DNA from: Owenia fusiformis | Lineage: Eukaryota > Annelida > Polychaeta > Sabellida > Oweniidae | Direction: 5' to 3' | DNA: 64,000 nt | Assembly (NCBI GenBank): GCA_903813345.2 | Contig: CAIIXF020000005.1 | Coordinates: 21,889,375-21,953,374 of the forward strand | Part shown: piece after piece, positions 274 through 64,000 of the stretch | Layout of the letters: each line of letters starts with the position of its first letter | Position numbering within the stretch: the stretch's first letter is position 1 | Notes under the pieces: model-generated | The model's database searches: none | What the model was told of the DNA's origin: nothing | What the model saw: only the letters and a program-made list of their open reading frames with translations | Made by a program: the position numbers and the translations under genes

Positions 274-600
274 TATTATTATATCTTGGTTACTGCCATA
301 TTTGGCGAGCAATACCTCATTGGTATATTCCGTATGTTAAGTATTTTACACTCGAAGATAGAGCCAGAAACCCCTCCTTGGAGGAGCCCTGTTTTCTTTT
401 ACGTGCACAGGTACACAGACATACAGGTATACACCACAGCCTTTTTATACGAGTCGGGAACCACTCAGTCAAACACCCAGAATTACATAACGCACAAACA
501 AACTTGTCTGAACCAGGAATCGAACCCGGGGCCAAGCGATATTGGTAACCTTGACTCTCTCTGCCACTGAGCCATAGCGGGTGGACTAGCCATAGCAGGT
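274..600 (-). mobile_element. tRNA-derived SINE
   Basis: Read on the minus strand, this has a tRNA-like head with an internal RNA polymerase III promoter: A box TGGCTCAGTGG (564-574) and B box GGTTCGATTCC (516-526). A tRNA-unrelated body follows, with a GTGCACG-AAAAGA segment, and it ends in a short ATAATA-type tail near 275. The tail abuts the Helitron-like end. The head lies about 40 bp downstream of the splice donor of the dehydratase exon at 641-789, so the SINE sits in the next intron in the same orientation as the gene. Which tRNA it came from was not determined. Confidence 0.75.
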
Positions 601-640
601 GTAGCTAGCTTATGGATGGGGATTTGGGACAACTTATTAC

Positions 641-789
641 CTCCTTCTGGTTCAACCCCATACACTCTTGTGTTTCGACAGCCTGACAGTTTGATAGCAG
701 CAGCTATTCCAGCCACTAAACCTCCACCCCCACAGCAAACTAAGACCACATCTGGGTTCGGACAATCTTCAATGATCTCAAAACCAGCA
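641..789 (-). CDS. Serine racemase / threonine dehydratase family protein, glycine-loop exon
   Basis: An internal exon of 149 bp with acceptor TTTTGCAG before 789 and donor GAG|GTAATA after 641. It begins by completing a Ser codon (AG|T) begun by the exon at 15737-15867 and ends in phase 1. The translation runs from AGFEIIED to RVYGVEPEG. It contains CCGGGGLVAG, the glycine-rich loop that holds the PLP phosphate in fold-type II enzymes, and the VYGVEPEG strand that follows it in serine racemase and threonine dehydratase. There are no stops or frameshifts. The C-terminal exon(s) must lie beyond position 1. Fold and family are clear; whether the enzyme racemises or deaminates, and its substrate, cannot be told from this part. 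Confidence 0.85.
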
Positions 790-879
790 CTGCAAAACAT
801 AATGTTCTGTATTATCTTTTCTTCATATTTGCAGGCTTGATAAACGCCCATTCTGTTGGATAAAACTATTCACAAATGT

Positions 880-1013: not shown

Positions 1014-1541
1014 CAAGGGTTCAACATGGCTGTAACAGTGTAGCAAGGTTATAGCTGGGAGGAATATCTTATCATGATAATTCCAGCAAACATATGGGGA
1101 TGGGGTGCGTTGGACATTGAACTCTTTAGATGTTAGAGACCTTATTATATACCATATACTGACACCTTGTTGAAGTGTGTCCAACTTTTTTACACATACA
1201 TGTAACAATTAACAACAGGTCAGATTAAAATTATCATTTCACCAATTTCACATGCAAATGAGCTAATTTACACCTAAGTTTACACTTAGTTTACACTTTA
1301 GTATACATCCAATTTACATCAAGAACACACTCTGATTGGTCAGTTAGTTCACATACATACAGTAGTTCACCCAATCCTTAATTGGCGAAATGCTAACTGC
1401 TTATTGCAGGGGGAGAGAATGCAAAGATATTCTTAATTTTGAAGCACTGTGATCAGAGAATATTATTTATGAAGATACAGGGGGTCCAAGGCGTGACAAA
1501 GTGCAAAAAATTGCAAAAACAAAAAATCCTATGTTGTCTGT
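1014..1541. other. No gene recognised
   Basis: AT-rich intronic DNA. The only structure seen is a run of TTTACACTTAG-like phrases at about 1265-1310. No exon with splice sites was found. Confidence 0.5.
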
Positions 1542-1680
1542 GTCTATGTCAATAATCTGCAAAAGGCTAATAAGCCCATATAAAGCAGATATATAATTAA
1601 ACAGTGATAGAATTTGAATATAATATAATTTTAAACCTTAACATTTAAAAATAGATCTATGGTTTGCAACTCATTTTAAA
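1542..1680 (-). mobile_element. 5'-truncated CR1-type LINE copy (3' UTR only)
   Basis: The reverse complement matches the 3' UTR of the intact LINE at 50043-50181 almost base for base, including AACCATAGATCTATTTTT and the final GATTATTGACATAGAC. Both copies stop at the same GACATAGAC, so this is the true 3' end of the family. Only the last ~140 bp survive, the usual result of incomplete target-primed reverse transcription. Confidence 0.85.
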
Positions 1681-26902: not shown

Positions 26903-29900
26903 TCAGAAGATGTTCTTCAGTAATATTTTATTTAATCTATCTACCGTGACGCTTATATCATGTCCACCTAAAATCCTGGCCTCATCGCCTATTATCCATT
27001 TTAATTTATCGCTTGTTTCTGACTCAAGGTATACTTCTAAAACTGGACTAGGGACTTGATTTTTCATTTCCAAATAAAACTTGTTTCTCGCAGTTTCATA
27101 AGAGGGGCATTCAAAAAGTCTGTGCTCCAGGGTTTCGATTTTATCTGGGCACTCTTCGCAGTAGGGTGAAATGGGTGGGTTTAGATTTTTCCATTTGGAT
27201 TTCTCTGAGTTTAGATTAAACTTACCAGCACGTGCTAAAAATTTTATGCGTGACAACTGGAAGTCATAATCATTATAAAGGTATGTTGCTCTTCCCTTTT
27301 TTGGGATCAGATTAAGTTGATGGTATTTGTTGAGACTACTTTTTTCCAAAATACCCTCATTTATGTACTTTTTTGAGAGATCTAATATCTGTTTATGGTA
27401 ACTGTACGAAATATTTTCGGCAGTTTCAGAGATACCGCTTAATTGCATCAGTTTGAGGGTAGCATCAATATGTTTAACATAGTTCCAGTGGTTCCCTTTG
27501 CCCATTTCAAACCTTTTCTCCATGCAAGCTAATAGTCTTGCATTAAGTGAAGTTGGTTTTTTAGATTTGATATAAATATAGTACTCAACTTGTCTTTTTA
27601 AAACCGTATATTTCATGGGGGTCCAACCCAAATCAGACACAATGGCTTCGTATGCTGGTGTTCCTTTAATATCAAATATAGCACGGCCTGCATTATATTG
27701 CATTGACTTAAGGCGCGTTTCATAAGATTTATTGTCCGAAGCCCATATAGCACATGAGTGAAGGACACTGGATAAGAGTTTACTTTTATAAAGTTGGTTT
27801 CCAAAGTCAATTCGTTTAACATTCATATGTCTATTTAATGTGTATTTGATATATCCATTAAGCTTTTTTGCTTTTAGGGCTGTTTCATTCATGTGGTCAT
27901 TGTCTCTAAGGTTTTTGTGGAAAATATAACCTAAATATTTGTAGGAATGCACTTCACTCAGTTTCAAGTCTCCAAATGACCATTCTTTTGTCTTGTCTGT
28001 TTTCTTCCCAATAACCATAACTTTCGATTTTTTCTGACTAAAGTTAAAGCCCCATTTGACTGCGAATTCATTAACAATTTTGAGCATGGCATTCAGTTCA
28101 TTTTCAGTGTTAGCAAAGAGGACAATGTCATCTGCAAACATGAGTGTTGGGATAAGTTGTTCTTCAAATTTTATACCCACTTTTGCATTTATCAGCTGGT
28201 CATATAGATCAGTCATTATGATGGAGAACAGAGTTGTTGATAAGACACAACCCTGTTTAACTCCATATGGTTGAGTGAACCAATCTGTTTCATTTCCGTT
28301 TCCGAAGGCAACTTTAGTCTTATTATCATGATACATTTGCCGTAATAGTCTCCACAACTTACCTCTAACTCCTTTTTTCCAAAGTGCCAAAAACATCCGG
28401 TCGCGGTCGATTACATCATACACTTTTGAAATGTCTAAAAATGCCAGGTATGTGCTTTTTCGTTCACTTTTTCTAAGACTGCATAAAGCTTTCATCGTAA
28501 ATATGTTATTTTCTAATCTTAGACCTTTTCGAAACGCCCCTTGAATTTCTCCAAAAATATTTTCTTCTTCGCAGAAAGAGGTAAGTTGGACATTTACAAT
28601 TGAACAAAATAGCTTGTATACATTTGAGGTCACTGTAATACCTCTGTAATTATCTTGGATATTTTGATCTCCACTTTTATGAACTGGTTTAGAACACCCT
28701 CCTTCCACTGTACTGGGAATTTTTCAAAGTCCTTGCACTGGGTAAAAATATCGAAAAGTGTTTCAGAAATTGCCTGGCCGCCATATTTTAAAAATTCGTT
28801 TGGAATTAAATCTGTACCCATGGCTTTGCCATTGGTCAACTTCTTAATGTGTGTTGCAAGGCATTCCCTGTCAAAATATACTTGATCAATTATGCTTTTC
28901 GTAGGGTCCACTGTGTCTGTAAGATTCATTTCCATATGTTTAAGGTCTTTGGAAAAATCATTGACAGAGGAATGTTTATTGCGATTTTTATTACCGGCCT
29001 TTGCCCAATATTCCCTAATAATAGCAGAGACTTGTTTGGGGTCATCGATAATGATATCTGGGTACTTTGGGTGAGCAATTCTAATAGGGGCATTACTTTT
29101 TTGATTAAACATATTTAAGGTGTTCCAGTATGATTTGGAGCTTGAAGATTTATTGCTTGCATTCTTAGTAATAACCTTAATGTGATTTTCAATCATTTTC
29201 CTTTTAATGTATAATGTAACTTTTTCTTTTCTTTCTAAATAAATGTTCCAAATGTCTTGAAAAGCCTCGAGATCTGTGATTCCCGATGCTCTCCAAAACC
29301 TGCAAAATTTGTTAGCTTCTTTGCGATTTTTGATTAGTTGCTTCAGTTCATTGTCCCAAAATGATCGCAGTTTATGGGAAATAGTCTTGTGACCTATTAC
29401 CTCATTTGCTACATCTAATATTATTTCACGCCAATTAAGCCACATTTCATCCAGGGATTTAAAACTTGATGATTTCCAATTGCTTAATCTAAAAGATAGT
29501 TTTTCCTCAAATAACTTCCAGTCAGAATCATTATCTATTTTCCAGATTTTGGGACTTTCTCGGTTGTCTGGGAAAGGTCCAGATATATTAAGTGCTTTTG
29601 CAGCCTGAATATTAAAGTATGATATAAGCATACAGTGGTCGCTACCGATTGAAAAGTTCCCGGCTTCGTCAATTATCATATTATCAAAACAATGATTGAA
29701 TTTATCATTAATGAGTATATAGTCAATGGTAGAAACAAGGTTATTCCTAAACCAAGTATACTTCCCCTTACATCTAGGGGATAAATTCAAAACATTAAGG
29801 TTAGAAACTTCAATTAGTAACTCTAACAGATTCCCATTTGGACTAGGCCTCTTTTCATTTCTAAATTCTCTAAGTCTACCATTAAAATCACCCATTACAC

Positions 29901-30471
29901 AAATTAGGTCACCCATGGACTCCAAAGTTGCTACATTTGATATTAATTCTTCTGTTAACTGATCTGCCTTATCATTACTGGTTCCATCGTTGGGGTAGTA
30001 TGCTATGCAAAGTGCAAGGTTTTTATCACCTACCTTAGTGCGAATCCAATACCGTTCAAAATCATCGGTTTTTGAATTAAGGAGGTTGTCATTGGTCACC
30101 TTAATGTCAGTATTAGAGGTTAAAATACCGATACCTCCCCCTTGGCGTCCTAACCTTGGTTTACTATGTAACGTGTGGTTAGAAAACGTTGCTGATAGAG
30201 AGGAGTTAGACGTTAGGAAGGTTTCGCTCATACCCATAATGTGAACTTTATTGTTATCAAGGAACCTTTTAAGTTCTTGCTGTTTGGCAAGACCGAGGTG
30301 TTGTACATTATTAAATACTAGGGTAAGGTTGTTGATATGCACATTATTTTTGTGTTTCCGTGATCTTCTGTGTCTACCACGATTTGGGCGCATGTTTGGG
30401 CTTGGTCTCTTCGACTTACATGTATCATTACTGTTATAAGACTTGGAGACTGGTTCAGGTGGTGAGGCCAT
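26903..30471 (-). pseudogene. LINE ORF2: APE endonuclease and reverse transcriptase, one frameshift
   Basis: The ORF starts at ATG 30471 and stops at TGA 26903-26905. The first part (30471 to about 28690) carries the APE endonuclease: FNNVQHLG near the start, GMSETFL (catalytic Glu), GDFNGRLREF and SIGSDHCML. It then runs into the fingers of the reverse transcriptase (NGKAMGTDLIPNEFLK). A one-base loss in an A-run near 28690 shifts the frame. The second part continues in another frame with DNYRGITVTSNVYK, SKVYDVIDRDR, GVKQGCVLS and the catalytic box MFADDIVLF. It ends with the zinc motif CEEC-x8-H-x4-C typical of LINE C-termini. About 1,190 codons in all, near the usual length. Apart from the shift, all key residues seen are present, so the loss is recent. 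Confidence 0.9.
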
Positions 30472-30510
30472 GGATTTTACATTGGATATGGCACACTCAT
30501 TGCCGTGATT

Positions 30511-32070
30511 TTAGCTTAGCACTGAAAACCTGTTAAAAGATTCATAGTTTGGTCCATTAAAAGGGTAAGAGTTTTTATGTTGTAGTAAACTTTGTGGTTT
30601 AACCCTGGGATAATTGTCTGTTTTGCTACCATTCATGTTAGAGTCTGATTGTTGTAGGGGTCTTGGACACAGGGATTGCTTGTGCCCCAGTTCTTTACAT
30701 AGATGGCACCGGACAGTTGCAGGGTGCCAACATGTTGTAACTAGATGTCCTGGTTCACCACATTTTTTGCACTTAATTGTATTGTTTATTGCATTGTTAT
30801 TGTGGGTAGTAGGTTTGTAGGCGTTATGTTGCTTTGCTTTGCTAGTGTTTATGTAACCATTTGATGTAGGTCTACGATTGTTCCAGGGGCGGGTTGTATG
30901 CTGTGGTGGATGCTGGGGGGTGTTGTTGGCGTCAGAGTCATATGGGCTGGGTGGTGTCTTTTGTGTGGATTGCTGTGGTCTTTGGGTTGTGCGCTTGGGT
31001 GGGGCTCGCTTGTTTTTAGGTAATGTTATGTCAGATGCCTTTGTTGAAATGTTCAGGTTCTTCAGAAGTCGGTTAGTTCCAGAATCAGATAGGTGTAGGT
31101 GGTCAGCAGCCAGAAAGCCATCATTGATGGACCCATCCTGAAGTTTGAAGATTTTGTCATTGTCGATGAATGTGATTTTCTCATCGGAGCAATGGCAGAG
31201 TAAGAATCCATTTAGTTGTTCAATTTTGCTTTGGGCATCTGAGTCGTCCATTCTAGGTGTAACACTTGAAACGATGATGTCTTTTGAGCGCTGCTTTGCA
31301 CCTGCCAAGAGTAATTTGTAGTCCTCACATATAAGGTTGACATCATTACCTCAGGCGCAATCATTGCTTCCGACTTGCAGGTAAATTGTGTTGTAGTTAG
31401 TGTCACCAGATGAAAGTGTTTTATGAACATCTGAAATAGTTCCACCACGCAAGCATTTTACTTCAGTGTTAACAAGCTTGGTTGAGTCTACATCACGCAC
31501 TATGGAAGAGCCAATAAGGAGAGAGGGGAGGGTATTGTTTGGCATTGTACTAGCATTGCTCAGTTGTTTTCTAAGTGCAGCATTTTCTCGATGTAATTCC
31601 TCCTTATCTGCTGTTATCCTAGCGAGTTGTTTAACTAAATCTTCATTAGTTTTTTGCATGTTATTAAGGTTCTTGACACTTTCATTCAGGTCCCTCACCA
31701 TATTCATAACTGTCAGTAAGTCAATAGGATGTGAGGATGTGGGATCTTGGGGTTTGTTAGCCCCTTGCGACGCTTGAGCAGTCTTACGTGGGCGGCCTCT
31801 GCGTGGTTTAGATATCACAGTGCTAGGGCGTGCAGGTTGAGATCTAGCCAGTCTGCGTTTGCTGCGCCGCCGTGTGGGTACACCACTAGCTTGGGGTGGT
31901 TCGTTTGTTGAATTGGTAGGTGTATGTGTAGGTGGTGATACACCTGATTGTCCAGTGTTTGATTGTGCTGGTACTTGAAGGTTTACAGTCTGTGAATTGG
32001 CAGGGCTTGCATCACCTGTTTGTGATTGCGTTTCTGGTATACTAGTAGTAGGGGTACTTTGGCTGCTCAT
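30511..32070 (-). pseudogene. LINE ORF1: SGNH esterase with CCHC zinc knuckles, in-frame TGA
   Basis: A frame of 520 codons from ATG 32070 to TAA 30511, broken once by TGA at 31353-31351. In order: a Ser/Thr/Pro-rich N-terminus; an AT-hook-like KPRRGRPRKT; a predicted coiled coil (LARITADKEELHRENAAL); and an SGNH hydrolase with LIGSSIVRD (block I), LQVGSND (block III) and ADHLHLSDSG (block V, D-x-x-H). Then comes a Pro/Asn/Gln-rich linker and two zinc knuckles, CKKCGEPGHLVTTC and CHLCKELGHKQSLC. Esterase-type ORF1 proteins are known in CR1 and related LINEs, where they are thought to aid RNP/membrane steps. The TGA falls just after block III, separating the two halves of the active site. Confidence 0.88.
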
Positions 32071-45521: not shown

Positions 45522-46112
45522 GAGGATGGGTATCAATATTGTGAACTTTTTGAACACACGTTTCTCTTAAACCAGTCAAAGACCAGTAAAATTTATGAAA
45601 ATTTTACACATTGTCAATTTAATGGTCATCATTTGAATGGTTACAATATAATTTGAAATAAATATATATACTTTTCTCTATATTGTTTTAGAAAACACAT
45701 CAGACACTTCTTTTGTTCTTGGTTTCATATGTTCGGAATGAAATGAAACATCTATCCGAACGTCATTGGAACTGACATAAACACAACGTGTTTAGGTCTC
45801 TCAATTTAGTTATTTTACAAAGGAAAGTTTGGTTGATTCTAAAAAAGTATCTTGTTCATGAAATAAAAGGTTTATCTTAATTTTTATCTATTTTGGTGGT
45901 TTTTGTTTTAATTTTTTGAATACTTTTTGTTAATCAACCAAAATTTCATTTGTACAACTATTATATTGGGAAGTCTAAAAAATGTTGTATATGCCATTTT
46001 GTTCCAACAAGCTTTGGAAAGATACTTTATTTCATTCCCAAGAATTGGTAAAAAGTAACAAAAAACAATTGCACTAAAAACAAAAAATGTTAAAAAATGT
46101 TAACAAAAACAG
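45522..46112. mobile_element. CAAAGGATTGGTATC MITE, copy C, 3'-truncated
   Basis: It starts GGATGGGTATCAATATTG, then follows the same body as copy B. It is cut off at the start of the GATGG/GGATAG microsatellite at 46116. Confidence 0.7.
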
Positions 46113-46115
46113 AAA

Positions 46116-46250
46116 AAAGATGGATGGATGGATGGATGAAATAGGAAGGAGGGACAGGATGGAATAAGATAGAATGATAGGATAGAATAGCAAAGAAGGA
46201 TAGGATAGAATAGGAAAGGATAGGAAGGATAGATAGGAAGGAAGGAAATT
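46116..46250 (+). repeat. GGATAGGATAGAATAGGAAGG microsatellite
   Basis: A purine-rich array that starts with (GGAT)n and continues as GGATAGAATAGGAAG units. Two more arrays of the same kind lie at 50183-50350 and 63538-63780. Confidence 0.85.
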
Positions 46251-46501
46251 ACGAAAATTAAATCATAATTACATCGATTACCTGCGCAATTCTAATTTAT
46301 TCTCGATAAAGCCTCCAGATTTTAATAACTTACATACTTACTTCTAATAATCAACGACATTTAAATTATAGCAGGACCCCCTTTTGGGGATAAATCAGTT
46401 TTAATTTTCGTATTTTTCAAAATTCGGTTTTCGCGGTATTTTTCATATTTTTGCGCGAATTTTCTTATTTTCAGCTAACGGGTTCTACCTACCTCTTCGT
46501 C

Positions 46502-49500
46502 ATGGGTTTCCAAGGATATGGATTGCTCCTTCTCTGCTTTGTTTTCGCAGTCCAGTCATTTTTCTGTGATCATGGAAACCACTTACCTTCAACAGAGTCG
46601 TACACACAGTTGATGCAACTGCGACGTTTCCATAAGATTGTTGGCTCTCGTGGAATCCTTCACAAGAAATCTTCCACACCACTGCTCTTCCTATGTCTTA
46701 TTCTTAGTGGTGACATCCACCCAAACCCAGGTCCTGTTAAATTTCCCTGCGGTATGTGCCACAAAGCAGTTGCCAAGAATCATCGCGCCCTTGAATGCGA
46801 TGAATGCGGCACATGGGTACACATCAAATGTGGCAATGTTTCCCCTGCTGAGTACAATGTTTTTCTTGACGCGGGCAGTTTCACCTGGATCTGTCCTGGA
46901 TGTGCCCTACCTAATTTTTCCAACAGCTTCTTCAATGACTCCACTCTTTCTCATTCCTCGGTAACAAACTCCTTCAGCGCTCTCTCTGATCTTGACAATT
47001 CGTCATCATCATCTGATTCTACCGAATCAGAACCACCGAGGCTGACTGCACGAAAGAGGCGAAACCAGGTTCGCCTCATGTCTATCAACTTCCGCAGTCT
47101 AATTAGTCATGAGAAGCAACTACACCTTCAACAACTAATTGAAACTCACAAGCCAGATGTCATCATAGGCTGTGAGACTCACCTGGACAACACCATCGAC
47201 AGTAAATGGATATTCGGTCAAGACTACCTTAGCCCACCTCCATACAGGAAAGACCGAAAGAAAGGTGCTGGCGGTGTCCTTATCGCAGTCAAAAGTGGCT
47301 TCATATCAGTCGAATATGAAGCGACAGCTGATTGCGAAATCATATGGTCCAAAGCATCTCTATCAAATGGGGACATACTGTTTGGATCCTTCTATCGTCA
47401 ACCAAACAACGATACTGGTGCTTTGGACTCGCTCCAAACATCCCTCGATAAACTTTATGCTAATGGTAATACACATATGAAAAACATCTTCCTATGTGGA
47501 GACTTCAACTTACCAGACATCGATTGGGAGAAAGGAACTATAAGGCCTAATTCTCAATATTCTAATGATCTTAATGAGAAGATGATTACAATAACTGATG
47601 ATCATGGCCTAACCCAACTAGTCAAGGAACCAACTAGACAAAATAACATCCTTGACTTAGTATTCACTACATGCCCAAACCTCGCAGAAAGAATCTCGGT
47701 GGTTCCGGGCATGAGTGATCACGAGGCAGTCCTATGTGATATAAACCTAAAAATGAAAATTCAGAAAAAGAAGCCTCGTAAGGTCCACATATACAAGCGG
47801 GCAGAATGGACTGGACTTAAAGAGACTCTACGATCTAAATTCAGCGAGTTCAAAGAGAACTGTGAAAGTAGATCAGTTGAAGACAACTGGTCCTCCTTCA
47901 AATCTACATTAATATCGTCAATCAATGAGCATATTCCAAGTAAAACTCTAAGCGGGAAATTCAAAGTACCCTGGATTACCACCAGGATACTGAGAATGAT
48001 CCGACAGAAACAAAGACGATATAATGTTGCCAAACGTTCAAATGAACCTCATCATTGGCATAAATACAAATCACTACGGAAATTAATCCATAGTGAAATT
48101 CGTAAAGAACATCAGCGCTACATCAACGATCTGCTTGACATTGATGAAAGCGAAATCATAAATGAGAATGTTCAGCACAAAGGCATTACCAAACGCTTCT
48201 GGAGCTACATAAAGTCTAAACGCAAAGATGCATCAGGTATCAGCGTGCTGCGTAACAAAGATGGCGAAGAAATAACAGACGCCGCCCAGAAAGCAAACAT
48301 CCTCAATGACCAATACAATTCTGTATTCACAGATGAGGATGCCACTCTACCGACAATGGTACCTAGTCAAATTCCTGAAATGCCAAATATCAAAATTTCG
48401 ACAAAAGGAATTCACAAATTGCTAACTGGCCTAAATCCATCAAAAGCCACTGGACCCGATCTTATTCCGACTAGGGTCCTGAAGGAATGCAGTGACAGCA
48501 TATCACCATTCCTTCAAATAATTTTTCAACAGTCTATCGATGAAGGCTTAGTGCCTATGGACTGGAAACATGCCAATGTTACTGCTATCTACAAAAAGGG
48601 ACGAAGAGATGAGGCTGTGAATTACAGGCCTGTATCTCTGACGTCAGTTCCATGTAAAATAATGGAATATATTATATTCCATCATGTTATGGCCCACTTT
48701 GACCTCTATGAAATTCTAGTAAAATTCCAACATGGATTCAGGTCAAAGCACTCATGTGAAACACAACTTGTCAATACAATAGAGAATATAGCTCGGGCCC
48801 TCGACAACAATAAACAAACAGACATGTTGGTATTAGACTTTTCCAAAGCGTTTGACACGGTGGCTCACGAACGCCTCTTGCTCAAACTCGACTATTATGG
48901 AATTCGCAATAATAACTTGAACTGGTTCAGATCCTGGCTTGTGGGAAGATCACAACAGGTAGTGCTCGATGGTGAATCAAGTTCAAAAACTCCAGTAAAA
49001 TCAGGAGTTCCTCAAGGAACAGTTCTTGGACCACTCTGTTTCCTTGTTTATATCAATGATATGGGCAATAACCTATCATCCTCAGCCAGTCTTAAGCTTT
49101 TTGCCGACGACAGCCTTTTATTCATGACAGTCGAAAGCAAGCAAGATGCATTAACACTACAGGAGAATCTTGATAAACTGGTCTCCTGGGCATCAACATG
49201 GCAAATGAAATTCCATCCATCAAAATGCTATGTGCTAAATATTCACAAAGGTAAATCCCCTATCATGCACAATTACACCATGCTAGGGGAAAACCTTAAG
49301 TCGGTAACACACATCCCATACCTAGGAATTGACATCACAAATAACTTACGCTGGACTACACATATTCAAACTATTGTATCCAAAGCCAATAAGGTGCTTG
49401 GATTTCTCAGGCGCAACCTCCATCAATGCCCTGAAAAAGTGAAGGCTCAGGCGTATAAGTCACTAGTCCGGCCTAATTTAGAGTATGCCAGCTCGGCATG

Positions 49501-49921
49501 GGATCCGTACCGACAAAAAGATATTGATATGTTGGAACAGGTACAGAGAAGAGCAGCCAGGTTTGTAACCAAATGTCACTCAAGGGAACCAGGCTGCGTC
49601 ACCAAAGCTCTTCAAGACCTACAGTGGGAGCCACTGAAGGAGCGTCGAGAGGCTGCTAGAGTTTTCCTTTTCTACAAAGGAAAGCAGAACCTAGCAGCCA
49701 TCGACGTGCCTCCATACTTCCGCCAACAGATCAATACCAACACTAGGTTGTATCATCCTTCTAAGTTCATACAACCATCAGCTAGAACGGATGCATACAA
49801 ATTTAGCTATTTCCCTAGGACAATAGCTAAATGGAACACTCTACCTGGTGACATCTTAGACTGTGACAGTCTAAGTAGTTTTAAATCATCATACTATGCC
49901 TATGTCAATAACTGCAATTAA
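46502..49921 (+). CDS. CR1-type LINE polyprotein: 2A-like peptide, PHD finger, APE endonuclease, reverse transcriptase
   Basis: An open frame of 1,139 residues from ATG 46502 to TAA, with no stop or shift. Residues 7-22 and 60-69 are hydrophobic. Residues 70-78 are GDIHPNPGP, a 2A-like ribosome-skipping motif. A PHD finger follows (C83, C86, C99, C102, H107, C110, C131, C134), then a Ser-rich linker. The APE endonuclease is at about 190-416 (N196, E225, GDFN 333-336, SDH 405-407). The reverse transcriptase has YRPVSLTS, LDFSKAFDTV near 779, SGVPQGTVLGP and FADD at 867-870, then the CR1-type thumb (YLGIDITNNLRW, PNLEYASSAWDP). All catalytic residues are present. The frame is open further upstream (to 46451), but no earlier ATG was found. 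A separate ORF1 was not seen. Confidence 0.92.
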   Translation: MGFQGYGLLLLCFVFAVQSFFCDHGNHLPSTESYTQLMQLRRFHKIVGSRGILHKKSSTPLLFLCLILSGDIHPNPGPVKFPCGMCHKAVAKNHRALECDECGTWVHIKCGNVSPAEYNVFLDAGSFTWICPGCALPNFSNSFFNDSTLSHSSVTNSFSALSDLDNSSSSSDSTESEPPRLTARKRRNQVRLMSINFRSLISHEKQLHLQQLIETHKPDVIIGCETHLDNTIDSKWIFGQDYLSPPPYRKDRKKGAGGVLIAVKSGFISVEYEATADCEIIWSKASLSNGDILFGSFYRQPNNDTGALDSLQTSLDKLYANGNTHMKNIFLCGDFNLPDIDWEKGTIRPNSQYSNDLNEKMITITDDHGLTQLVKEPTRQNNILDLVFTTCPNLAERISVVPGMSDHEAVLCDINLKMKIQKKKPRKVHIYKRAEWTGLKETLRSKFSEFKENCESRSVEDNWSSFKSTLISSINEHIPSKTLSGKFKVPWITTRILRMIRQKQRRYNVAKRSNEPHHWHKYKSLRKLIHSEIRKEHQRYINDLLDIDESEIINENVQHKGITKRFWSYIKSKRKDASGISVLRNKDGEEITDAAQKANILNDQYNSVFTDEDATLPTMVPSQIPEMPNIKISTKGIHKLLTGLNPSKATGPDLIPTRVLKECSDSISPFLQIIFQQSIDEGLVPMDWKHANVTAIYKKGRRDEAVNYRPVSLTSVPCKIMEYIIFHHVMAHFDLYEILVKFQHGFRSKHSCETQLVNTIENIARALDNNKQTDMLVLDFSKAFDTVAHERLLLKLDYYGIRNNNLNWFRSWLVGRSQQVVLDGESSSKTPVKSGVPQGTVLGPLCFLVYINDMGNNLSSSASLKLFADDSLLFMTVESKQDALTLQENLDKLVSWASTWQMKFHPSKCYVLNIHKGKSPIMHNYTMLGENLKSVTHIPYLGIDITNNLRWTTHIQTIVSKANKVLGFLRRNLHQCPEKVKAQAYKSLVRPNLEYASSAWDPYRQKDIDMLEQVQRRAARFVTKCHSREPGCVTKALQDLQWEPLKERREAARVFLFYKGKQNLAAIDVPPYFRQQINTNTRLYHPSKFIQPSARTDAYKFSYFPRTIAKWNTLPGDILDCDSLSSFKSSYYAYVNNCN
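46709..46735 (+). other. 2A-like ribosome-skipping motif
   Basis: This encodes GDIHPNPGP just after a hydrophobic LLFLCLIL stretch. The consensus is D-V/I-E-x-N-P-G-P, with chain release between the last Gly and Pro. 2A-like motifs are established in APE-type LINEs of marine invertebrates, some of which double as signal sequences. Here the consensus Glu is His, so activity may be reduced. If active, it would release a 77-residue hydrophobic leader from the PHD/endonuclease/RT protein. Confidence 0.75.
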
Positions 49922-50181
49922 ATAGGTGTGTTTTTAATATAGATCTATGTTTTAATGTAAAGGGTCCCCAGTGCACAGCAACAAGCCTGCACTACTGGTA
50001 AAGAGGGGTGATGTCAACGCGGTTAGCCTGACAGTCTCCCCAGGTAAAATGAGTTGTAAACCATAGATCTATTTTTAAATGTTAAGGTTTTAAATTATAT
50101 TCTATTCAAATTCTATCACTGTTAAATTATATATCTGCTTTATATGGGCTTATTAGCCTTTTGCGGATTATTGACATAGAC
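49922..50181 (+). mobile_element. CR1-type LINE 3' UTR
   Basis: The 260 bp after the stop contain AAGGGTCCCCAGTGCACAGC and the block shared with 1542-1680, ending GATTATTGACATAGAC. A second copy ending at the same base defines the 3' terminus. There is no poly(A). Confidence 0.85.
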
Positions 50182-50182
50182 A

Positions 50183-50350
50183 AAGGGATGGGATAGGACA
50201 GGAAGGATAGGATAGAATAGGCAGGAACGATAGGATAGAATAGGAAAGAAGGATGGAATAGAATAGGAAGAAAGGATAGGAAGGATAGGAAGGAAGATTC
50301 AAAGGAAAGACAGATAGGAAGGAAATGATAGGATCAGATAGGAAGGATGG
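50183..50350 (+). repeat. GGATAGGATAGAATAGGAAGG microsatellite
   Basis: A purine-rich array joined directly to the LINE 3' end and followed by a GACTCCAG-family fragment. The array at 63538-63780 is followed by the same sequence, so array and fragment belong to one element. Confidence 0.85.
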
Positions 50351-50696
50351 ATGAATTTTTCAATATTTTCTTCTCACTTGACTTTCTATCAGGATACTAT
50401 CCGATTGATTTTTCTCGACATTTCAAAATGCCATATAATTTGAAGTTGGATCGAAATTTGGTTTGCAGATTCAGATTACTGAGAAAATTCTATCCTTCAT
50501 TCATAACTCATACGTTAAATTTGGAGAACTTTTTATTTTGACCTACTTTTTGGACACCATATCTCAAAAGTGGGTCAAAATACTTTCTGACGACAAAGGG
50601 CTAACACTATTAGCACACTCTTGGCTACATGTATACATAATTTCGAAGAATATAATTAAGTGCAGTGTCAGAATTGCAAAAATAAGGAAAAACTTT

Positions 50697-51248: not shown

Positions 51249-52720
51249 AGTACCGTGGGTACTGGGCTCACATGGTGTTGTTCAAAAGTGAAAATAAAAA
51301 AGACGGGTATAATTTTTTGCAGATTTTTTGTGACAAAATTATTTCATACAACTACTCTTTACAAAGACATGGCTTTTTACAACACAGGACACCTCAACTT
51401 CTTTGTAAAGCTAGGAAATGGGCCAAAAGTGAATTTCCCGAGACAAAAATGGTTGCCATTTTGAAAATAGGCGAGATTTTGAAGCAGGAGTCACAGTTTT
51501 TTTTTCTTTATTGATGTTGAACAAAAATATTTTAAATCGGGAATCCTATCTACAGAGGATTTAAAAAGTGTTGACAGAGGTTTAAAACTTGCCACTATTT
51601 TGGACTGACTGAGAGACAGATGGACGAATCAATATTAACTAAAATGGCTGAAAATAAAAAAACGGATATAATATTTTGCCGATTTTTTGTAACAAAATTA
51701 TTTAATACAACTACTCTTTACAGTGACATGGCTTTTTACAATGCAGGACAGCTGAAATTATTTGTAAAGCTTGGAAATGGGCCAAAAGTGAATTTCGCGG
51801 GACAAGAATGGCGACCATTTTGAAAATAGGCGAGCTTTTGAACCAAAAGTCATAGGAGAGTTTTTTGGATTGATGTTGAACAAAATTAACTTAAAACAGG
51901 AATCCTATCGACAGAGGGTTTAAGGCAAATGGTCCAAAAGTGGATTTTGCAAGACAGATGGACAAATCAATGTTAACTAAAATGGCTGAAAATAAAAAAA
52001 TGGATATAATTTTTTGCTGATTTTTCGTAACAAAATTATTTCATACATCTACTCTTTACATTGACATGGATTTTTACAATGTAGGACACTTGAAATTATT
52101 TGTAAAGCTAGGAAATAGGTCAAAAGTGAATTTCGGGAGACAAAAATGGCGGCCATTTTGAAAATAGGCGAACTTTTGAGCCAGGAGTCATAGGGGAGTT
52201 TTCTGTATTGATGTTGAACAGAAATAACTTAAAACAGGAATCCTATCGACAGAGGTTTTAAAACGTGCTACTGTTGTTGACGGAAAAGTGGATTTCGCAA
52301 GACAGATGGACAAATCAATGTTAACTAAAATGGCTGAAAATAAAAAAATGGATATAATTTTTCGCTGATTTTTTGTAACAAAATTATGTCATATATCTAC
52401 TCTTTACATTGACATGGATTTTTACAATGTAGGACACCTGAAATTATTTGTAAAGCTAGGAAATGGGTCAAAAGTGAATTTCGCGAGACAAAAATGGGGG
52501 CCATTTTGAAAATAGGCGAGCTTTTGAACCAGGAGTCATAGGGGACTTTTCTGTATTGATGTTGAACAGAAATAACTTAAAACAGGAATCCTATCGACAG
52601 AGGTTTTAAAACGTGCCACTATTGTTGACGGACAGACAGACGGACGGACGGATGGACAGACAGACAGACAGACAGACCGACAAGCGAGCGATTGCAAAAG
52701 CTCACCATGTGAGCTAAAAT
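51249..52720 (+). mobile_element. Element with four ~340-bp core repeats, (ACGG)n tract and hairpin
   Basis: The left end has GGCTCACATGGTG; the right end has the inverse inside a hairpin, GCTCACCATGTGAGC (52699-52713). Core units start near 51290, 51641, 51977 and 52328 with AAAATGGCTGAAAATAAAAA and include TGGATTTTTACAATGTAGGA. A (GACGGACAGACA)n tract lies at 52628-52680. The architecture equals that of the pearl-like elements but with a longer and unrelated core. Confidence 0.8.
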
Positions 52721-63457: not shown

Positions 63458-63540
63458 TTTTTAAGCCCAGTCATCCAGAATAAGCCGAGTCTTCCAGAAT
63501 AAGCTGAGTCATCCAGAATAAGCCCAGTCATCCAGAAAAA
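63458..63540. repeat. CATCCAGAATAAGCCCAGT tandem repeat
   Basis: Four units of ~20 bp within the GACTCCAG-family fragment, at the place where the copy at 37012 has a 12-bp array. Confidence 0.85.
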
Positions 63541-63780
63541 GATGGATGGGTGGATTGAATAGGAAGGAAAAATAGGATAGAATAGGAAATAAGGATAGGA
63601 TAGGATAGAATAAGAAGGAAGGATAGGATAGGTTATGAAGGATAGGAAGCTAGAAGGGATAGGAAAGAATAGGAAAGAAGGATAGGATAGGATAGAATAG
63701 GAAGGAAGGATAGGATAGGAAGGAAGGGTAGATAGACAGGAAGGATAGGATAGGAAGGATGGATGGAAGGATAGATGGAT
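63541..63780 (+). repeat. GGATAGGATAGAATAGGAAGG microsatellite
   Basis: A long purine-rich array, the third in the window, followed directly by GACTCCAG-family sequence as at 50350. Confidence 0.85.
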
Positions 63781-64000
63781 TTTTCAACATTTTCTTCGCT
63801 ACTCTTGACTTTCTATCAGGATACCATCAGATCGATTTTTCTCGAAATTTCAAAACGCCATAACTTTCGAACCGGAACTCGGATCGAAATTTGGTTTCTT
63901 AATTCATAACTCATATGCTAAAGGAGAACTTTTTATTTTGACCTACTTTCTGGACTTTTCTTTCAGACAGGATAGGAAGGAAGGATGGATGTTTTTTTCT
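63781..64000 (-). mobile_element. GACTCCAG-family fragment continuing past the window
   Basis: The reverse complement of the 34989-37267 family (TTGACTTTCTATCAGGATAC, AAAACGCCATAACTTTCGAA, TTTTGACCTACTTTCTGGAC). It ends in another GGATAGGAAGG stretch at the window edge. Confidence 0.75.

Follow-up and report, generated by a model that had tools for sequence, protein, structure and literature searches.

2A-like motifs reportedly occur in CR1, L2, Rex1 and related APE-type LINEs, where Odon et al. in 2013 are said to have tied them to a single ORF; a survey by Rao in 2025 is said to cover both eukaryotic and viral 2As. Single-ORF LINEs with a PHD finger have been classified as type IIIA, which comprises CR1 subgroup 6 and L2 subgroup 4 (PMC4120745). 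In sea-urchin NLRs, the 26-aa N-terminal 2A is itself a predicted signal in 12 of 14 sequences, and dual targeting was demonstrated for SpNLR2A6 (PMC4981915). Some upstream regions, when translocated into the ER, inhibit the 2A reaction (PMC2978324). The 2A core has been widened to (D/G/C/N)(V/I)ExNPGP, and His at position 14 (p14) was noted among RNA viruses as an over-represented variant, though a rarer one (PMC12846837; PNAS 2026). Here, we describe a LINE with His at p14 in a 64,000-nucleotide stretch of the Owenia fusiformis genome (contig CAIIXF020000005.1, positions 21,889,375 to 21,953,374, forward strand; hereafter the window).

An open LINE frame within a minisatellite

Translation of the window confirmed the uninterrupted 1,139-codon frame that the original prediction had reported (Table 1). 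No stop lies inside it, and the closest in-frame stop upstream is at 46391. Pfam matches and hydrophobicity peaks also bore out the predicted order of hydrophobic leader, GDIHPNPGP, PHD finger, endonuclease, and reverse transcriptase (RT). The second hydrophobic peak continues straight into the 2A core, and the predicted skip site is G77/P78 (46732/46733). The PHD finger has C4HC3 ligands (C83, C86, C99, C102, H107, C110, C131, and C134), and its best matches among solved structures are the Pygopus and MLL1 PHD fingers. The endonuclease was matched by Exo_endo_phos (aa 205-389) and Exo_endo_phos_2 (aa 292-410); each Pfam call, including PHD and RVT_1, exceeds its curated cut-off. An APE-like endonuclease is thus followed by an RT within one protein. 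An AlphaFold model built from 17 aligned sequences (mean pLDDT 76.8, pTM 0.59) is confident for the endonuclease and RT, and the leader is almost entirely below pLDDT 50. Its best PDB matches are to human LINE-1 ORF2p (E 3.1e-43); with an rmsd of 17 over 1,010 columns, the domains match but their arrangement is uncertain.

Table 1. Window coordinates of the element, its parts, and its surroundings
Feature	Position	Strand	Basis or detail
Minisatellite left half, unit about GGATAGAATAGGAAGGAAGGATA	46112..46249	.	Tandem-repeat rows within 46112-46247
5' UTR	46250..46501	+	Inferred from the minisatellite edge alone
Single ORF, 1,139 aa plus stop	46502..49921	+	Start context GTCATGG
N-terminal hydrophobic segment, aa 7-17, GLLLLCFVFAV, signal-peptide-like	46520..46552	+	KD 3.01; shuffle p 0.0024
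Leucine-rich upstream part of 2A, aa 60-70, PLLFLCLILSG	46679..46711	+	Hydrophobicity peak
2A-like core GDIHPNPGP, aa 70-78, His at p14	46709..46735	+	Translated sequence
PHD finger, aa 83-134	46748..46903	+	Pfam E 1.2e-06
APE-type endonuclease, about aa 190-414	47069..47743	+	Pfam, alignment, and model
RT core, aa 698-943	48593..49330	+	RVT_1 E 2.2e-33; VPQG 836, FADD 867
3' UTR, ends near GACATAGACA	49922..50185	+	3' edge set by sister copy
Minisatellite right half	50186..50353	.	Tandem-repeat rows and self-alignment
Sister copy of the element 3' end, 5'-truncated	1538..1678	-	135/141 identical (95.7%)
Empty-site proxy, a paralogue of the target repeat without an insertion	63535..63955	+	Joined flanks span the junction

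The element extends from about 46250 to 50185 and interrupts a 23-bp minisatellite. The left half of the minisatellite aligns with 50186-50296 and 63535-63776 within the window. When the flanks were joined, they aligned with the uninterrupted paralogue across the junction (472 columns, 76.5%); to the left this alignment is minisatellite throughout, and non-satellite sequence comes from the right flank only. AAGG flanks the element on both sides by eye, a candidate target-site duplication that could also stem from the target repeat, which is itself AAGG-rich. The truncated sister copy, the one such copy within the window, shares the 3' end of the element and defines it near 50185. Since this copy sits outside the minisatellite, the latter is not a strict target, as judged from the two insertions seen. 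No poly(A) was found at the element 3' end, and a 3'-terminal hairpin was predicted at 50133-50168 (z -2.40; 3 of 200 shuffles fold equally well). The absence of ATG from the 5' UTR was considered as proof of the start and rejected, for 0.84 ATG are expected and 37% of shuffles also have none.

The original prediction held that every locatable endonuclease and polymerase residue was kept and that the family may have been active recently. The window protein retains 48 of 49 near-invariant endonuclease-RT columns and differs only by F605Y; a column was counted as near-invariant when at most one of 26 aligned relatives deviates, with L005, L029, and L042 left out. Under random substitution, a stop becomes 95% likely once divergence reaches about 2% (1.9-2.3% with kappa of 1-3), so the open frame indicates that the insertion is young or the frame is still under selection. 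Together with the 95.7% identity of the sister copy, these sequence comparisons support a fairly recent insertion; the open frame is not evidence of present mobility.

By its sequence, the element is a coding-intact APE-type non-LTR retrotransposon, full-length or nearly so. Its RT reads DFSKAFDTVAH and LFADDS, and the RTs of two relatives, L034 and L024, read DLSAAFDTIDH; the RT clade signatures agree with a CR1/L2-group element. The endonuclease-RT tree, built with unlabelled relatives, likewise agrees with the joint CR1/L2 group. With its single ORF and N-terminal PHD, the element has the type IIIA layout, and by these signatures and the tree it is a known type of single-ORF, PHD- and 2A-bearing LINE of the CR1/L2 group.

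Other features were seen in the window. A second, different LINE at 26903-32070 (-) has CCHC-bearing ORF1 pieces, an endonuclease, and an RT; these parts lie in different overlapping frames, so it is apparently broken. A frame at 483-851 (-) matches PALP (pyridoxal-phosphate enzyme) and is probably a host-gene exon. A 348-bp tandem repeat occupies 51614-52632 in three copies with 91% matches.

The His-bearing 2A-like motif and its relatives

As the original prediction had noted, His stands in place of the consensus Glu. DIHPNPGP therefore falls outside the canonical core D(V/I)ExNPGP, and this difference at p14 was counted against an active 2A. The sequence CLILSG-DIHPNPGP has p14=H with the rest canonical and an upstream tract of a described class, as in the rare variants; it retains G at p11, D at p12, I at p13, NPGP, and the leucine-rich tract. 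Across all six reading frames, the window has one further NPGP, at 523(+); it reads NQESNPGP, has Gln at p13, and follows no leucine-rich stretch. According to PMC12846837, a natural viral example with p14=H was >95% active in reticulocyte lysate; hence, His alone is no argument against skipping, and the substitution need not mean loss. L-rich upstream motifs also proved active in vitro in that paper; its motifs 2 and 6 accompany p12 D, p11 G, and p15 S. The window tract resembles this LLLLSG-like class and matches at p11 and p12, but has P rather than S at p15. The same source cautions that rare 2A variants may require a more restrictive flanking context, which may apply to the window as well. 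In the literature searched, GDIHPNPGP had no match and HPNPGP was matched in mycovirus work only.

Relatives were collected by a degenerate RT-motif scan of genome contigs, which gave 42 stretches under bacterial or archaeal titles. The majority code for LINE-type proteins related to that of the window and are presumably contaminating DNA from eukaryotic hosts. A 2A-like motif was found in 12 of the 42 loci, by a pattern that left p14 and p15 free and fixed p12 as D/G/C/N and p13 as V/I/L/M/T, so that other deviants would be missed. Nine of these motifs lie within an RT-bearing ORF near its N-terminus, and seven of the nine (L006, L017, L019, L023, L028, L035, and L037) share one assembly, that of a Bathymodiolus brooksi gill symbiont. 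A thirteenth locus, L086, was found by a leader-2A-PHD profile and, being a biased draw, was kept outside the 12/42 count. Over 14 motifs (window, L086, and the 12 loci), the p14 residue is Glu in 10 cases, His in three (window, L006, and L035), and Ser in one (L023).

The closest full-length relative, L019/L046, comes from the Bathymodiolus brooksi symbiont assembly and is probably of mussel origin. It is 43% identical over query 79-1129 and has the same leader-2A-PHD-endonuclease-RT order, but its 2A core, SDTETNPGP, carries Thr at p13 together with Glu at p14, and it has two tandem PHD fingers. In L046 (G001 C157), the tandem pair sits between the 2A and the endonuclease. The leader-2A-PHD order is common to the window, L046/L019, L006, and L023, and in the window, L046, L006, and L023 the PHD starts only a few residues past the skip site. 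In the window's own endonuclease-RT clade, L015/L062 showed no 2A in the available sequence, their frame opening just upstream of the endonuclease.

The endonuclease-RT tree held the window and 29 of 36 RT-bearing frames; L014, L018, L020, L022, L026, L032, and L045 were left out because they were too short or had no match. The window, L006, and L035 fall on separate, well-supported branches. A label test on the 10 rows with 2A, ignoring the other 20, gave three changes for His (shuffled mean 2.8; 500 of 500 shuffles as low or lower); because three is the maximum for three rows, the test says no more than that the His rows are unclustered. His may have originated three times, or it may have swapped with Glu in a different sequence of changes. 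As His turns up in three LINE branches, searches limited to D(V/I)ExNPGP may overlook real LINE 2As.

Several candidate observations were set aside. A link between I13 and a non-Glu p14 (Fisher p 0.07, 14 motifs) is not claimed, nor is swapping of a leader-PHD module among lineages, as PHD identities fail to discriminate. The D(V/I/M)HPNPGP match L003, an 84-aa frame on a 360-kb viral contig, was judged a chance match to a pattern that demanded His and was excluded from the tallies. Among viral contigs, a pattern search gave 36 matching stretches with no relatives by tblastn, and the RT-motif pattern gave two loci with little similarity.

A different arrangement was seen in five LINEs from Candidatus Poribacteria records, presumed to be sponge DNA (L008, L013, L038, L043, and L044). 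In all five, an upstream ORF and an endonuclease-RT ORF are in-frame with a single TGA between them; the next triplet is CTC in L008 and CTA in the other four. Met is absent from the roughly 40 codons inspected past the TGA, a stretch in which endonuclease motifs are already present. UGA-CUA is a readthrough context, and by sequence this TGA looks like a site of programmed UGA readthrough. In L038, a 2A also precedes the PHD. A search for TGA-split LINEs in 145 genomes recovered only these five places. For readthrough in such LINEs, nothing specific was found among the literature matches listed, and the terms are absent from PMC2881922.

Hydrophobic segments in the leaders

Leaders were compared in 10 RT-bearing ORFs with a 2A (the window and nine loci), each taken from the first Met of its frame and tested over the first 30 residues. 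The N-terminal hydrophobic segment exceeded shuffles of its own leader in six of 10 at uncorrected p <0.05: the window (0.0024), L019 (0.039), L006 (0.016), L023 (0.024), L009 (0.0014), and L034 (0.014). After correction for 10 tests, p <0.05 was kept by the window and L009 only. The leaders of L017, L028, L035, and L037, which form one tree branch, had no such segment beyond shuffles (p 0.40-0.87). These four share a leader start, MGN....R..IG.F, and no PHD was found after their 2A. For L028/L037, pN/pS was 0.44 in the leader (66 codons) and 0.24 in the rest; for L006/L023, it was 0.67 (83 codons) and 0.44. With synonymous sites near saturation, these ratios lend weak support to the leader being translated and constrained.

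The original prediction had likened the leader plus 2A to a dual signal-sequence and skipping element described for some LINEs. Its ingredients, a hydrophobic N-terminus and a 2A, are present. The likeness fails in that PMC4981915, in the parts consulted, describes NLRs rather than LINEs and the 2A itself is the signal there; in the window, some 50 residues separate aa 7-17 from aa 70-78, so that one stretch does not serve both roles. We tentatively raise, as a doubtful generalization, that the leader of some 2A LINEs is modular, composed of an N-terminal ER signal, a spacer, and a 2A whose Glu has repeatedly turned to His, the signal taking the translating mRNA to the ER. If so, skipping would free the replicase at the ER, with the leader passing into the membrane or the lumen, and the modular leader would place the retrotransposon RNP at the ER co-translationally.

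Expected products, alternatives, and known systems

We consider it probable that the locus is a coding-intact single-ORF LINE of the CR1/L2 group in which 2A skipping yields a 77-aa leader, bound for the ER, and a 1,062-aa replicase, and which inserts by TPRT. Translation from 46502 would make the leader, and on most ribosomes the StopGo/2A would block the peptide bond at G77/P78. Each such ribosome would then resume to make the replicase, with Pro first and almost directly the PHD, followed by the endonuclease and RT. By analogy with its family, the replicase would use TPRT, copying the RNA from its hairpin-bearing 3' end at a nicked target. The first hydrophobic segment of the leader would probably direct to the ER both the released leader and the minority of fusion protein left by incomplete skipping. 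Relatives and published work point to an active window 2A; ER targeting of the leader and histone reading by the PHD are more speculative and may apply. The predicted yield of a leader and a separate replication protein from one ORF is plausible and finds support in the sequence. Weighing against the overall reading are the non-Glu p14, the L015/L062 frame without a 2A, the four leaders of one clade that lack the N-terminal segment, and the origin in a single assembly of seven of the nine relatives with 2A and RT in one ORF.

It is unlikely that the His-variant 2A is weak or inactive in the host, in which case the product would be a 1,139-aa fusion and the leader a mere N-terminal extension. 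In the cryo-EM structure of F2A, Glu14 is stacked on A3640, E14Q retained 56% or 26% activity in earlier studies (PMC12846837), and some motif-bearing 2A-like sequences are inactive (PMC11512398). Against these stand the high activity of p14=H in its natural viral context, the other 2A residues and L-rich tract kept by the window, and the recurrence of His in separate LINE branches. A decayed or assembly-chimeric relic, open by chance, is very improbable: only a single full-length copy was seen, but 1,139 codons lack a stop, the near-invariant columns are almost all retained, and the repeat is broken at both element ends.

A further reading, which overlaps the one we favour and strikes us as possible but rather doubtful, is that incomplete skipping splits the replicase between the cytosol or nucleus and the secretory route, as in sea-urchin NLRs. 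The segment beyond shuffles in six leaders, the SpNLR2A6 precedent (PMC4981915), and the inhibition of 2A separation by translocation with some upstream contexts (PMC2978324) speak for it, and partial skipping with partial ER entry by the window leader is conceivable. In the window, however, the segment and the 2A are separate modules, what a LINE would gain from a secreted replicase is not obvious, and four of the 10 leaders lack the segment.

The element offers an intact natural test case for the activity of a His-14 2A within a LINE. The same construct would also test whether a signal-like leader before a 2A directs the site of replicase synthesis.

Compared with 2A LINEs of the type that Odon et al. 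reportedly described, the window differs in p14 His and in a hydrophobic segment apart from the 2A. CR1 subgroup 6 and L2 subgroup 4 resemble it in having apparently one ORF with an N-terminal PHD, then an APE endonuclease and RT; unlike the window, they come, in the passages of PMC4120745 that describe them, with mention of neither 2A nor leader, the comparison being one of descriptions. Sea-urchin NLRs share with the window a hydrophobic N-terminus and a 2A preceding a larger protein, but they are immune-receptor genes in which a single stretch of 26 aa serves as signal and 2A alike (PMC4981915).
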